A DNA stretch of 64,000 nt from Streptomyces sp. NBC_01723. Its GTDB lineage: Bacteria; Actinomycetota; Actinomycetes; Streptomycetales; Streptomycetaceae. Made by a program: the position numbers and the translations under genes. This document shows, piece by piece, positions 38,366 to 45,703 of this stretch; within the stretch, counting starts at the first letter, position 1, and each line of letters opens with the position of its first letter. The notes under the pieces were generated by a model. The model was given only the letters and a program-made list of their open reading frames with translations. It had not been told where the DNA came from and did no database searches. The stretch covers positions 7,428,001 to 7,492,000 of the forward strand of contig NZ_CP109171.1 of assembly GCF_036246005.1 (NCBI RefSeq), given 5' to 3'.

Positions 38366-38540
38366 TCACCGCGCCGCACGTTCCCCGACCGCCCGCCGCA
38401 CGGGCGTCCGCGCCGTGCCGACGCGAGCCACGGGGTGGTCCGCCGGCGGGGCGGAGACCGGGGTTCGGGTGGTGGAGCGGGCCCCCGGCCCTCACCGCGC
38501 CGCGAGCTCCCGCACTGCCCGCCGCACAGGCGTCCGCACC
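38366..38540. repeat. Decayed duplicate of the 3' end of the CDP-alcohol phosphatidyltransferase gene
   Basis: The minus strand at 38416-38366 reads [14 protein letters not shown] plus stop, nearly the same as the C-terminus of the gene ending at 38492 ([14 protein letters not shown] plus stop). The two copies are direct repeats about 126 bases apart. The outer copy is not translated and is probably a relic of a local duplication. The rest of 38316-38491 shows nothing else recognisable. Confidence 0.65.
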
Positions 38541-39253
38541 ACCCGCGTACTCCGCCACAGCCACAGCACGTCGCGGCCGAACGACCACACCAGGAGCCCC
38601 AGGGCCAGCGCCACCACCCCGGCGTTCGCCACGCGCGGCAGCACGTCGGCGCCGGCCAGGAGCAGCAGTACGCCCTGGAGCGCGGCCACCGTCTTGCGGG
38701 CCGTGCTCGGGGGCAGCGGGGCGGTCAGCCACGGCCACACCCGGGCCGCGGCGACGAACACGTAGCGCATGGAGCCGATCAGCAGCACCCACGGGCCCAG
38801 GTCCATCGCGACGTACACACTGAGGACCAGGATGAGGAACGCGTCGACCTCCATGTCGAAGCGGGCGCCCAGATGCGAGGACGTACCGGTGCGGCGGGCC
38901 ACCTTTCCGTCCACGCCGTCCAGGATCAGAGCCACGGCGGTGAGGCCGACGAGGAGGGAGACGGGCGGCGCGCTGCGGAAGGAGTCCGCGACCAGCGCCG
39001 TCACCCCGCCGACCAGCGTGGCCCGGCCCAGGGTGACCCGGTTGGCCGGGCCGAACGACGCCGGCCGGGACCGGTGCAGGGCCCGTGCCAGCACCGCCCA
39101 GGTCGCGAACGCGAAGGCGAGGCCGGTCAGCCAGCCCGCCGTGCCCATCCCGATCGCCGTGCCGAGCAGCGCCAGCAGCAGGATCTGCGCGCCCGCCCCC
39201 ACCGCGGTCTCCTGCTGAACGGGCCTCGCGTCGTACGTGTTGTTCAGGGCCAC
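38492..39253 (-). CDS. CDP-alcohol phosphatidyltransferase family protein
   Basis: Predicted 253-residue membrane enzyme with about six hydrophobic segments. The family motif D-G-x2-D-G-x2-A-R-x8-G-x3-D-x3-D is intact: [20 protein letters not shown] then FDMEVD. Such enzymes move a phosphatidyl or phospho-alcohol group from a CDP-activated donor onto an alcohol. The GTG at 39253 is supported by GGAGGG 7 bases upstream. It diverges from the dehydrogenase gene at 39362 and so borders the GTP-derived metabolite cluster. It may supply a lipid or phospho-alcohol anchor for that product, which is inferred. The usual housekeeping phosphatidylglycerophosphate or phosphatidylinositol neighbours are absent. 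Confidence 0.85.
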
Positions 39254-39361
39254 CGAACACCCTCCGGCCGTGTGACAGAGTCGATCAACGCCGCTACCTT
39301 GTGCGCGGCTGTGCATCCCTCGGTACGTGGGCGGCTTCCCGATCGTTCAGGAGGACATCCG

Positions 39362-40354
39362 ATGACACGCAGGGCACGCGCGTTCTGGCTCGACTCGCCC
39401 GGCCGGGGCACGATCCGCGAGGTGGAGCTGCCGGAACCCGGTGCGGACGAGGTACTGGTGCGCACCCTCCACAGCGGTGTGAGCCGGGGCACCGAGACCC
39501 TCGTCTTCGCCGGCCGGGTGCCCGAGAACCAGTACGCGGCGATGCGCGCGCCGTTCCAGGAGGGCGACTTCCCCGGACCGGTGAAGTACGGCTACCTCAA
39601 CGTCGGCGTGGTCGAGGAGGGGCCGGACGCGCTCGTCGGGCGTACCGTCTTCTGCCTCTACCCGCACCAGACGCGCTACGTCGTCCCCGCCGCCGCCGTC
39701 ACGCCGGTGCCGCCGGCGGTGCCCGCCGCGCGGGCCGTGCTCGCCGGCACGGTGGAGACCGCCGTCAACGCCCTCTGGGACGCGGCGCCCCTGGTCGGCG
39801 ACCGCGTCGCGGTGGTCGGCGGCGGCATGGTCGGCTGCTCGGTGGCCGCCCTGCTGGCCCGCTTCCCCGGCGTCCGGGTCGAGCTGGTGGACGCCGACCC
39901 GGCCCGCGCGAAGGTCGCCGAAGCGCTCGGCGTGGGTTTCGCGTCCCCGGCCGACGCGCTCGGCGACCGCGACCTGGTCGTACACGCCAGCGCGACCGAA
40001 GCCGGGCTCGCCCGGTCACTGGAGCTGCTGCGGCCCGAGGGCACCGTCCTCGAACTGAGCTGGTACGGCGACCGGCGCGTCGCCCTCCCGCTCGGCGAGG
40101 CCTTCCACTCCCGGCGCCTGACCCTGCGCAGCAGCCAGGTCGGCACCGTCTCCCCGGCCCGCGGCGCCACCCGCACCTACGCCGACCGGCTCGCCCTCGC
40201 CCTCGACCTGCTCGCCGACCCGGCACTGGACGCCCTCGTCACAGGCGAGTCCGCGTTCGCCGAACTCCCGGACGTGCTGCCCCGGCTGGCCTCCGGCGAG
40301 ATCCCCGCCCTGTGCCACCGCATCCGGTACGACCGTGCAGGCGTCGGCGCCTGA
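39362..40354 (+). CDS. MDR-family zinc-type dehydrogenase
   Basis: Predicted 330-residue oxidoreductase of the medium-chain dehydrogenase superfamily. A GroES-like N-terminal domain ([20 protein letters not shown]) is followed by a Rossmann fold with [20 protein letters not shown] and [18 protein letters not shown]. The catalytic Cys that binds zinc in true alcohol dehydrogenases is replaced (HSGVSRGTE), as in a branch that includes BchC-like enzymes. NAD(P)-dependent oxidation or reduction of a sugar or polyol is likely; the substrate is unknown. It leads the run of five same-strand genes (dehydrogenase, PTPS-fold, glycosyltransferase, methyltransferase, flippase-like), with 135 bases to the next gene. 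Confidence 0.82.
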
Positions 40355-40489
40355 CCTCGCCCGACCTCGCCTGACCTTGAGAAAAGACGTACGGGCCGCT
40401 GAACAAGGGAAGACCTCCAGCCGTAATAGACGGCACCCCGCGCAGCGATCGGCGGGGGATCAGACGTGCCACACCTGGAGGGTCGTCCG

Positions 40490-40888
40490 TTGTTCAGCAT
40501 CACCGTCCGCGATCACATCATGATCGCCCACAGCTTCCGCGGCGACGTCTTCGGGCCCGCACAGCGCCTGCACGGAGCGACGTTCCTGGTGGACGCCACC
40601 TTCCGGCGCGAGCAGCTGGACGAGGACAACATCGTCGTCGACATCGGACTGGCCACCCGCGAACTGGGCGCCGTCGTCAGCGAGCTGAACTACCGCAACC
40701 TCGACAACGAACCCGACTTCGCCGGCGTCAACACCTCCACCGAGTTCCTGGCCAAGGTCGTCGCCGACCGGCTCGCCGAGCGCGTCCACAAGGGCGCCCT
40801 CGGCGAGGGGGCCAAGGGCCTGGCCGGTCTCACCGTGACCCTGCACGAGTCCCACGTCGCCTGGGCGAGTTACGAGCGTGCGCTGTGA
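40490..40888 (+). CDS. PTPS/QueD-fold protein lacking catalytic residues
   Basis: Predicted 132-residue T-fold protein related to 6-pyruvoyltetrahydropterin synthase and QueD. The TTG at 40490 is chosen because GGAGGG lies 7 bases upstream; the longer frame from 40466 has no such site. Aligned with QueD, His14 (IAHS) and His28 (RLHG) of the zinc site remain, but the third ligand is Ala30 (LHGA instead of LHGH). The catalytic Cys is gone (PAQRLHG for the QueD segment KCGRLHG), and the Asp-His pair is replaced by LNYRNLDN. The substrate-anchoring Glu remains (LHES). The S. coelicolor homologue SCO6650 was, as I recall, crystallised and found to lack zinc and PTPS activity. It probably binds or transforms a pterin-like compound in another way. 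Confidence 0.85.
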
Positions 40889-44344: not shown

Positions 44345-44952
44345 GCGGACATGCCGAGGGAGAGCAGATGACGTCGGTCGTCAGCGACGAAGTCGGCGGT
44401 CTCGTACCCGGGCCGGACCGATTCGGGGTGCGCGTGCAGAAGAATGGAGGTCTCGATTTCCCCCGCGTGCATGTCGGAGAGCAGCGAGGTGGCCACCCCC
44501 GCCCGCTGCCGCGCCGCCTCCCAGTCCTCCGCGGCCGGGAACAGCGCCATCCGCTCGCCGCGCGCGGAGGATTCCTGGACGACGTTGCCCAGTACGTAGT
44601 TCCCGCCGTGCCCGTTGACCACGACCAGGGCCTCGACACCGGAGCGGCGCAGCGAGGAGGCTATGTCCCCGACCACCGCGTGGAGGGTCACCGAGGAGAT
44701 GCTGACGGTTCCCGGCCAGTCCGCGTGCTCGTGCGAGCAGCCGATGGACACCGGCGGGAGCAGGTGCACCGGGTACGCGGCGGCGATCTCACGGGCGACG
44801 GCGCAGGCGACGAGCGTGTCGGTCGCCAGCGGCAGGTACGGGCCGTGCTGCTCGAAGCTGCCCACCGGCAACACCGCGACCTGCCGCGGCAGTTCGGCGC
44901 CACGCCTGCGCACGTCCTCCGAGGTGTCCGCCGGCACAAGTGAAGCATCCAT
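44194..44952 (-). CDS. Creatininase-family amidohydrolase, probable FAPy deformylase
   Basis: Predicted 252-residue metal-dependent amidohydrolase. Metal-site residues are in place: Glu34 and His36 ([12 protein letters not shown]), Asp45 (ATDT), the [10 protein letters not shown] and VNGHGGN loops, and HAGEIETS. The family includes creatininase, MftE and archaeal ArfB, which removes formate from FAPy, the product of GTP cyclohydrolase III. Lying divergent from a GTP cyclohydrolase II predicted to stop at FAPy, this enzyme is the natural candidate to deformylate it. The ATG at 44952 has AAAGG about 11 bases upstream; longer in-frame starts would run into the tandem repeats. Its 3' end overlaps the flippase-like gene tail-to-tail. 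Confidence 0.85.
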
Positions 44953-44983
44953 CCCGCACGGCCTTTCGTGTCTGTTGGGCAAC

Positions 44984-45028
44984 CTGTTGAGAGATCTGCT
45001 GAGAGATCCGCTGAGAGATCTGTTGAGG
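44984..45028. repeat. 12-bp tandem repeat in divergent creatininase/cyclohydrolase region
   Basis: Units CTGTTGAGAGAT (44984-44995), CTGCTGAGAGAT (44996-45007), CCGCTGAGAGAT (45008-45019) and a partial CTGTTGAGG (45020-45028). The partial fourth unit supplies the GAGG ribosome-binding site of the cyclohydrolase gene. The array sits in the 88-base gap between two divergent start codons. Confidence 0.8.
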
Positions 45029-45040
45029 AACGCGAGAATC

Positions 45041-45703
45041 ATGACAGAAAAAATTGGTGTACTCGGCAAGAAGGCATCGCAGCGCACGGACGTGGAACGC
45101 GTCGTGGTGACGCCGCTGCCCACCGTGTACGGGGAATTCCGGGCTTTCGGCTATGTCGACCACGAGCGCGGCGACGAGCAAGTGGCGCTCGTCTACGGCG
45201 ACCTGGGCGCCGAGGGGGTGCTCACCCGGCTGCACTCGGAATGCCTGACGGGCGACGCGTTCGGCTCCCAGCACTGCGAGTGCGGTGACCAACTGGCCTC
45301 CGCGCTGCGCGCGGTGGTCGCCGCGGGCAGTGGTGTCGTCGTCTACCTGCGCGGCCACGAGGGACGCGGCATCGGGCTGCTCGCCAAGCTCCGCGCGATG
45401 GCGTTGCAGGCGGAGGGCCTGGACACGGTGGAGGCGAACCTCGCCCTCGGCCTGCCGGTGGACGCCCGGGACTACGGCGTCGCCGCCCGCATCCTGGGCG
45501 ACCTCGGGGTGCGGTCGGTGCGCCTGATGTCCAACAACCCCCGCAAGCGCGAGGCGTTGGTCCGGCACGGCATTGAGGTCGCCGAGCAGGTGCCGCTGCT
45601 GATCCCGCCGTGCGAGAGCAACATCACCTATCTGCGGACCAAGCGGGAGCGCCTCGACCACCACCTGCCCCACCTCGACGCGCTGGCTCACCTCACGTCC
45701 TGA
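45041..45703 (+). CDS. GTP cyclohydrolase II paralogue, FAPy-forming type
   Basis: Predicted 220-residue enzyme of the RibA/GCH II family. Zinc ligands are Cys68, Cys79 and Cys81 in [18 protein letters not shown], and the nucleotide-binding segment is [20 protein letters not shown]. At residue 120, where E. coli RibA has Tyr105 (IRAYALQ), this protein has Met. As I recall from work on S. coelicolor SCO6655, the paralogue with Met at this position releases the formylated product FAPy, while Tyr-containing paralogues complete the deformylation. A stand-alone gene beside a creatininase-family hydrolase and without ribB, ribE or ribH argues against ordinary riboflavin synthesis. The ATG at 45041 gives the standard N-terminus and follows GAGG at 45025. 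Confidence 0.9.

Follow-up and report, generated by a model that had tools for sequence, protein, structure and literature searches.

A conserved actinobacterial gene cluster that may divert early riboflavin-type intermediates into a glycoside

Streptomyces sp. NBC_01723 carries a block of eight genes within a 64-kb stretch of contig NZ_CP109171.1 (hereafter the window; the genome measures 8.85 Mb, and its cluster is nearest to those of other Streptomyces). The block comprises genes for a GTP cyclohydrolase II (GCH2), a creatininase-family hydrolase, a core of MDR oxidoreductase, PTPS-like protein and GT4 glycosyltransferase, and a methyltransferase, a flippase-like protein and a CDP-alcohol phosphatidyltransferase. 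These eight genes are conserved as a unit, and their arrangement is not a matter of chance. The cluster occurs in many Streptomyces and in other actinobacteria, where it uses alternative starter enzymes: either a GCH2 without Tyr at position 120 (window numbering) together with the creatininase, or a Tyr-type GCH2 together with a RibD_C reductase. We propose, with a little better than even confidence, that the cluster encodes a dedicated pathway diverting early riboflavin-type intermediates into a glycoside.

Two of the proteins are already familiar as single parts. The window cluster corresponds to the SCO6655/SCO6650 locus of Streptomyces coelicolor: its PTPS-like protein is nearly identical to SCO6650 (PDB 3d7j) and its GCH2 has the Met at position 120. 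Earlier work, said to come from the Bandarian laboratory, handled these enzymes singly. The starter swap, the link to a reductase, the wider distribution and a membrane fusion described below are new here.

Conservation of the gene block

How faithfully is the block kept in other genomes? We took the best 80 of at least 553 confirmed PTPS-like relatives, all titled Streptomyces (L001-080), and counted a gene as present when its tblastn match spanned more than 25% of the query. The whole block, with identical order and strands, is found in 74 of the 80 loci. The PTPS-like gene is present in 80, the CDP-alcohol phosphatidyltransferase, MDR, GT4 and methyltransferase genes in 79 each, the creatininase and GCH2 genes in 75 each and the flippase gene in 74. 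Four of the six incomplete loci end after the methyltransferase gene, one lacks only the flippase match and one has the PTPS-like gene alone; these may be contig ends. The preliminary description of the window had treated the genes as one functional unit and had named scattered orthologues in other genomes as the finding that would speak against it. The conservation bears out the unit, and the orthologues in these loci are not scattered.

The cluster is not universal, even in its own genus: the PTPS-like gene has no match in at least 20 Streptomyces genomes. At a threshold of E 1e-8 it matches 57 of 394 genomes of the class and 46 of 396 of the phylum, the latter count including ordinary PTPS and QueD proteins. 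At 37 class-level loci we found the MDR gene in 37, PTPS-like in 37, GT4 in 36, CDP-alcohol phosphatidyltransferase in 30, methyltransferase in 27, flippase in 26, GCH2 in 25, RibD_C in 20 and creatininase in 12. This tabulation covers 37 of 38 loci: L162 was lost to an overlap filter that left it no PTPS hit and was entered from other tables, and the filter undercounts some genes, such as the flippases of L187 and L188. In a Rubrobacter-like family (f18), surveyed through short loci of 1.8-3.4 kb, the MDR, PTPS-like and GT4 genes lie side by side in 16 of 18 loci, with identities of 28-41%; the remaining two loci stop about 1 kb or less from the PTPS gene. Longer f18 loci show a RibD_C reductase gene ahead of MDR and a methyltransferase of another kind after GT4.

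Some loci depart from this plan. One draft genome (G402) holds the core in two copies (L175, L185). Inserted genes lie between MDR and PTPS in L176 and between GT4 and the methyltransferase in L158, L162 and L178; the insertion encodes an MFS transporter in L162 (11456-13072) and a Methyltransf_19 protein in L178 (13157-14044).

All eight genes named in the preliminary description are present in the window (Table 1). The run of five it reported, from MDR to flippase, stands, with the junctions recounted as four, of which three are 4-bp overlaps and the fourth is a gap of 111 bp. The CDP-alcohol phosphatidyltransferase gene is divergent from the MDR gene. The creatininase gene converges on the flippase gene, overlapping it by 151 bp, and diverges from the GCH2 gene, 88 bp away. 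Ten proteins encoded between 38.5 and 48.4 kb were tested and none was identified as RibB, RibD, RibH or RibE, so the GCH2 gene does not sit in a riboflavin-pathway neighbourhood. Adjoining it is a gene for a beta-lactamase-fold hydrolase (PF00144; 45718-46953), which recurs in 73 of the 80 Streptomyces loci and has no match in the class-level and phylum loci examined.

Table 1. Genes of the cluster, in window coordinates
Product	Position	Strand	Evidence
CDP-alcohol phosphatidyltransferase	38492..39316	-	PF01066, 50.8 bits (cut-off 22)
BchC-like oxidoreductase of the MDR superfamily, usual catalytic zinc ligands absent	39362..40354	+	Core gene; below the NCBIfam BchC cut-off
PTPS-like T-fold protein, SCO6650 orthologue	40466..40888	+	Core gene; PDB 3d7j, E 6e-82
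GT4 glycosyltransferase	40885..42099	+	Core gene; top NCBIfam match MshA, 93 bits (cut-off 462)
SAM methyltransferase, Methyltransf_25	42096..43190	+	Pfam match; 79/80 Streptomyces loci
Flippase-like membrane protein, LPG_synthase_TM, PF03706	43187..44344	+	Pfam match; 74/80 Streptomyces loci
Creatininase-family hydrolase, proposed AFRPP formamidase (BrbF/ArfB-like function)	44194..44952	-	PF02633, 216 bits; co-distribution
GTP cyclohydrolase II, Met120 replacing Tyr, SCO6655 type	45041..45703	+	PF00925, 218 bits; residue census; tree

Alternative starter enzymes and the reductase

One pattern among the loci links residue 120 of GCH2 to the creatininase. Position 120 is Met in all 75 GCH2 copies found in the Streptomyces set. 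It is also not Tyr at 14 class-level loci, being Met in L158, L162 and L186-L189, His in L173, L174, L179 and L181, Leu in L176, L183 and L190, and Gln in L178. A creatininase orthologue accompanies every one of the 14, locally at 13 and about 13 kb away at L183 (genome G742). Tyr-type GCH2 is found at 12 class-level loci (L113, L156, L157, L161, L163-L167, L172, L175, L191) and at one f18 locus (L122); none of these has a local creatininase gene, and all 12 class-level ones have RibD_C. A creatininase search of the 12 Tyr-type genomes at E 1e-10 gave no match in seven and weaker matches only in five (59-96 bits); for comparison, 13 orthologues from family f89 score 257-327 bits, and the f18 genomes score up to 108 bits. 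Fisher's exact test of residue type against creatininase gives P = 1e-7, ignoring kinship.

In three f89 genomes (G547, G608, G720) the core is kept while both starters, the non-Tyr GCH2 and the creatininase orthologue, are missing together. Full-length GCH2 proteins of the 20 cluster-free Streptomyces reach no more than 62% identity to the window enzyme, apart from which G246 shows a 54-residue fragment at 70%; all four cluster-bearing Streptomyces tested have a GCH2 at 83-100%.

What do these proteins do? The preliminary description had called the window enzyme a GTP cyclohydrolase II of the FAPy type. Family membership and the replacement of Tyr by Met120 both hold, as in the FAPy-forming SCO6655, whose activity was reportedly described by Spoonamore in 2006; the FAPy label itself is read from that single residue. 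In PMC9478397, BrbF, first annotated as a creatininase, deformylates AFRPP (the FAPy nucleotide), and its AFRPP-forming partner is called unknown. The window hydrolase belongs to the same family, and we propose that it has the BrbF-type activity. It scores 139.4 bits against the MftE peptidase profile (NCBIfam TIGR03964), under the cut-off of 172. The earlier prediction of a route from GTP to AFRPP followed by deformylation thus appears sound, given this precedent and a creatininase in every class-level genome with non-Tyr GCH2 examined.

The preliminary description did not foresee the RibD_C reductase, since the nearest relative in the window genome lies 3.6 Mb from the cluster and is perhaps simply a riboflavin enzyme. 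RibD_C genes adjoin the cluster at the 20 class-level loci counted above and sit beside the Rubrobacter-like core. The RibD_C tree separates three groups of them: Tyr-type clusters together with a lineage that we call RibDC_a (support 97), Streptomyces loci L186-189 with L166/167 (95), and f18 (92), where the f18 fork is shared with ordinary RibD and the tree carries long-branch warnings. In the GCH2 tree the non-Tyr proteins form one group (SH-aLRT 93, not starred), and the starred branches require two separate origins for the Tyr-type cluster proteins, making three in all. Three GCH2 lineages and three RibD_C lineages therefore apparently adjoin the same core, and different starters seem to have been drawn to it more than once.

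RibDC_a was called at 186 bits or more to the RibD_C protein of L113. Among 20 cluster-bearing Streptomyces, 16 have RibDC_a elsewhere in the genome, and four (G533, G541, G610, G667) have another RibD_C inside the cluster; all 16 f89 genomes have RibDC_a. The copy of the window genome (G000:C1:3856969; frame G000:C1:3856588-3857625; L238 6490-7731) is a fusion of reductase and deaminase domains in an order opposite to that of RibD. Of the 16 cluster-bearing Streptomyces with RibDC_a, 14 also carry a Tyr-type GCH2 akin to the L113 protein; the window genome (G000) and G334 do not. In G023 the Tyr-type GCH2 gene adjoins RibDC_a (G023:C1:4234418-4236518; L244), and the window genome keeps the reductase only. 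Elsewhere, in G008 (G008:C16:70917-74483), a GCH2 match lies beside two RibD_C matches, at a different place from the core, whose own locus in G008 holds neither.

Is the reductase part of the pathway? A full RibD exists besides the cluster RibD_C in all Tyr-type cluster genomes tested except the draft G422, and in six of six f18 genomes, so the cluster RibD_C of these genomes is best read as dedicated. RibDC_a was also considered as an obligate reductase, as every one of the 20 cluster-bearing Streptomyces has either it or a RibD_C in the cluster, while RibDC_a occurs in 6 of the 20 cluster-free ones. This reading we downgraded because of the RibDC_a-deaminase fusion in the window genome and G023, both without a RibD over the family cut-off.

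A rival account would be that GCH2-Met120 and the creatininase only feed DARoPP, the deformylated product, to flavins through a BrbF-type branch, next to unrelated core genes. In Sinorhizobium and Brucella, BrbF takes part in making riboflavin (PMC9478397), and RibDC_a with its deaminase could complete the route. Yet the window genome has a second GCH2, part of a 694-residue frame whose neighbours we read as RibH and RibE; different GCH2 lineages adjoin the same core; and the window-type GCH2 is missing from all 20 cluster-free Streptomyces. In PMC2853524, expression of SCO6655 is anticorrelated with predicted flux in S. coelicolor (r -0.61), as is that of SCO2687 (r -0.52). We regard a riboflavin-only role as improbable and retain it as a rival to the dedicated pathway.

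Core proteins and membrane genes

The PTPS-like protein carries the name of its structural match, 'Uncharacterized protein SCO6650'. The preliminary description had called it PTPS-like and given it a transformation step after deformylation; by its motifs it is no PTPS. None of the 80 Streptomyces and 38 class-level copies has the catalytic Cys or the third His of the zinc site (HGA in 117, HGV in L167). All 14 f18 copies checked keep HGH and lack the Cys, which is missing from all 132 cluster copies checked; in four phylum PTPS matches without the core, Cys and HGH are both present. The motifs given for PTPS-I, II and III in PMC5041015 are CxxxHGH, CxxxxxHGH and ExxHGH, and the cluster protein, without the Cys and with HGA or HGV in actinomycetes (HGH in f18), fits none of them. 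Against the NCBIfam QueD profile it scores 34.3 bits, under the cut-off of 89.25. All sequences aligned retain a Glu in the C-terminal T-fold motif. The role of this Glu is presumably to bind a 2-amino-4-oxo ring, and its conservation, as expected for such binding, we count in favour of the pathway.

These features bear on a second alternative, that the core modifies dihydroneopterin-type pterins made by GTP cyclohydrolase I, in the manner of cyanobacterial and Chlorobium pterin glycosides, while GCH2 and the creatininase serve some other purpose. The combination of a PTPS fold with a glycosyltransferase suits this alternative, as does a FolB gene adjoining the core in 10 of 10 f18 genomes. 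That gene is the sole FolB in nine of the ten, however, and so probably a housekeeping gene; we rejected FolB as a pathway member on this ground. The missing catalytic Cys and the repeated association of GCH2 and RibD_C with the core also argue against pterin modification, which we judge improbable beside the dedicated pathway.

The preliminary description was right to place the MDR protein in the dehydrogenase superfamily, but the usual zinc ligands are absent. An alignment of 18 members shows the invariant motifs SxxSxGTE, PHQ, ETA, SWY and SQVG and no Cys at what we take to be the usual zinc positions. Against BchC dehydrogenase (NCBIfam TIGR01202) the protein scores 51.1 bits, well under the cut-off of 291.25. 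Lengths among the 120 matches listed by a profile search that scored 8000 candidates run from 325 to 350, with nothing pointing to fusion.

Do the membrane genes belong to the cluster? The window CDP-alcohol phosphatidyltransferase passes its family cut-off and contains DxxDGxxAR(8x)GxxxDxxxD, which we take to be the motif of that family. In 8 of 13 f89 loci (L158, L162, L173, L174, L176, L178, L181, L183) its gene stands between those for GCH2 and MDR and reads in the same direction. At 11 of 38 class-level loci, including L156 (14388-16715), the protein is fused to an extra membrane segment and a C-terminal LtaS/LtaP-like domain; the window protein has no such fusion. One fused member matches Pfam Sulfatase at E 1.8e-5, with 24.6 bits against a cut-off of 25. 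A predicted model of the fused protein, of modest quality (mean pLDDT 63.7, pTM 0.43), has as top matches LtaP/LtaS lipoteichoic acid synthases for its C-terminal part and phosphatidylglycerolphosphate synthase for its N-terminal part (E 7e-4 to 6e-3). The fusion supports a membrane role, and together with the position inside the GCH2-MDR run it upholds the earlier assignment of the membrane genes to the cluster.

The same fusion would suit a glycolipid or phosphoglycan pathway, in which GT4, the phosphatidyltransferase, the flippase and the LtaS-like domain make an envelope polymer or glycolipid as main product and the soluble part supplies a GTP-derived head group. The weak top profile matches, MshA for GT4 and archaetidylinositol phosphate synthase for the phosphatidyltransferase, point the same way; both enzymes presumably use inositol phosphate acceptors, comparable with ribityl phosphate. 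Those matches are far below cut-off, however, and neither flippase nor phosphatidyltransferase was seen near the f18 core with Streptomyces queries. We think this pathway distinctly improbable and continue with the GTP-derived glycoside.

Proposed pathway and its precedents

We propose six steps. GCH2-Met120 would open GTP as far as AFRPP only, and the creatininase-family enzyme would then release formate, leaving DARoPP; where the cluster GCH2 is of the Tyr type, that single canonical enzyme would cover both steps. These opening reactions are quite likely, on co-distribution and precedent. RibD_C, which is encoded within the cluster in Tyr-type and Rubrobacter-like loci and in some Streptomyces, and elsewhere in the window genome, would next reduce ribose to ribityl, yielding 2,5-diamino-6-ribitylaminopyrimidinone 5'-phosphate, as in the archaeal and fungal order; the neighbourhoods in other genomes make this third step fairly likely.

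The later steps are tentative, each ranging from doubtful to at best an even chance, judged from family and position. The MDR protein and the Cys-less PTPS-like protein might produce a 2-amino-4-oxo pteridine or a modified pyrimidine, preferably through MDR oxidation at C2' and closure, assisted by the PTPS fold, onto the 5-amino group, which would give a dihydropterin without GTP cyclohydrolase I. Glycosylation by GT4 and methylation by the methyltransferase could follow, and the CDP-alcohol transferase and flippase-like protein may attach the product to the membrane or move it across. We infer the order after DARoPP, and likewise the 'lipid-linked pterin or pyrimidine' of the preliminary description. 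A fully specified version is unlikely: a new class of lipid-linked pteridines, made by a route widespread in actinobacteria without GTP cyclohydrolase I, by zinc-less MDR oxidation and Cys-less PTPS-fold closure of the ribityl diaminopyrimidine, then glycosylated, methylated and anchored by the polyol phosphate of the compound to a cell-surface lipid.

Several observations weigh against the dedicated pathway. Only the triad MDR-PTPS-GT4 is seen at L114, L168 and L169, and Streptomyces queries found no flippase or CDP-alcohol phosphatidyltransferase at 14 f18 loci and a GCH2 at one only. Two cluster-free genomes, G714 (L240 6430-7125) and G750 (L241 8351-9013), keep a creatininase at 58-61% identity, with no further cluster gene in the 16-17 kb fetched around it. 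The window creatininase scores 35.2 bits against the ArfB profile (NCBIfam NF033501; cut-off 180). As the non-Tyr GCH2 proteins form one tree group, their link to the creatininase may be a single event, and the counts are then not independent. RibDC_a is found in 6 of the 20 cluster-free Streptomyces. Finally, no RibD over the family cut-off was found in G000, G023, G334 or 11 f89 genomes tested, so RibDC_a with its deaminase is probably the housekeeping riboflavin enzyme there, which confounds RibD_C with riboflavin.

Known systems resemble parts of the proposal. BrbF is set beside the window protein by family and description rather than alignment, with the conversion of AFRPP to DARoPP proposed for the latter; BrbF serves riboflavin; the window hydrolase has its evident partner in the GCH2 variant encoded beside it, and the pathway probably leads to something other than riboflavin. 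The archaeal ArfA-ArfB-ArfC entry to riboflavin runs through the intermediates proposed here, AFRPP, DARoPP and ribityl diaminopyrimidine, but starts from GTP cyclohydrolase III instead of a GCH II variant, and the window hydrolase falls below the ArfB cut-off. In toxoflavin-type azapteridine pathways, GCH2 and RibD-type enzymes are recruited for a secondary product, as here; to our knowledge these pathways lack an MDR/PTPS/GT4 core. The cyanobacterial and Chlorobium glycosyltransferases act on biopterin from a true PTPS. Their pteridine glycosides (CtPGT, PMC5683033; PMC13259868) share with the proposed pathway a pteridine and a glycosyltransferase; here the Cys is absent, the zinc triad is broken in the window and the cyclohydrolase is GCH2, not GCH1. 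SCO6652, which by gene order we infer to be the methyltransferase, has values of 0.8, 4.3 and 4.1 in a differentiation transcriptome table of PMC3610822. A weak literature search, covering mostly open-licence papers, found no paper assigning a pathway or product to the cluster.

The proposal makes two orphan Streptomyces enzymes parts of one testable pathway. It suggests a GCH II point variant as the kind of enzyme that could be the missing AFRPP-forming partner of BrbF, and it offers an annotation rule, in which GCH2 residue 120 is read together with a creatininase orthologue. Many streptomycetes and Rubrobacter-like bacteria would be expected to make the product, perhaps a new cofactor, pigment or component of the envelope.

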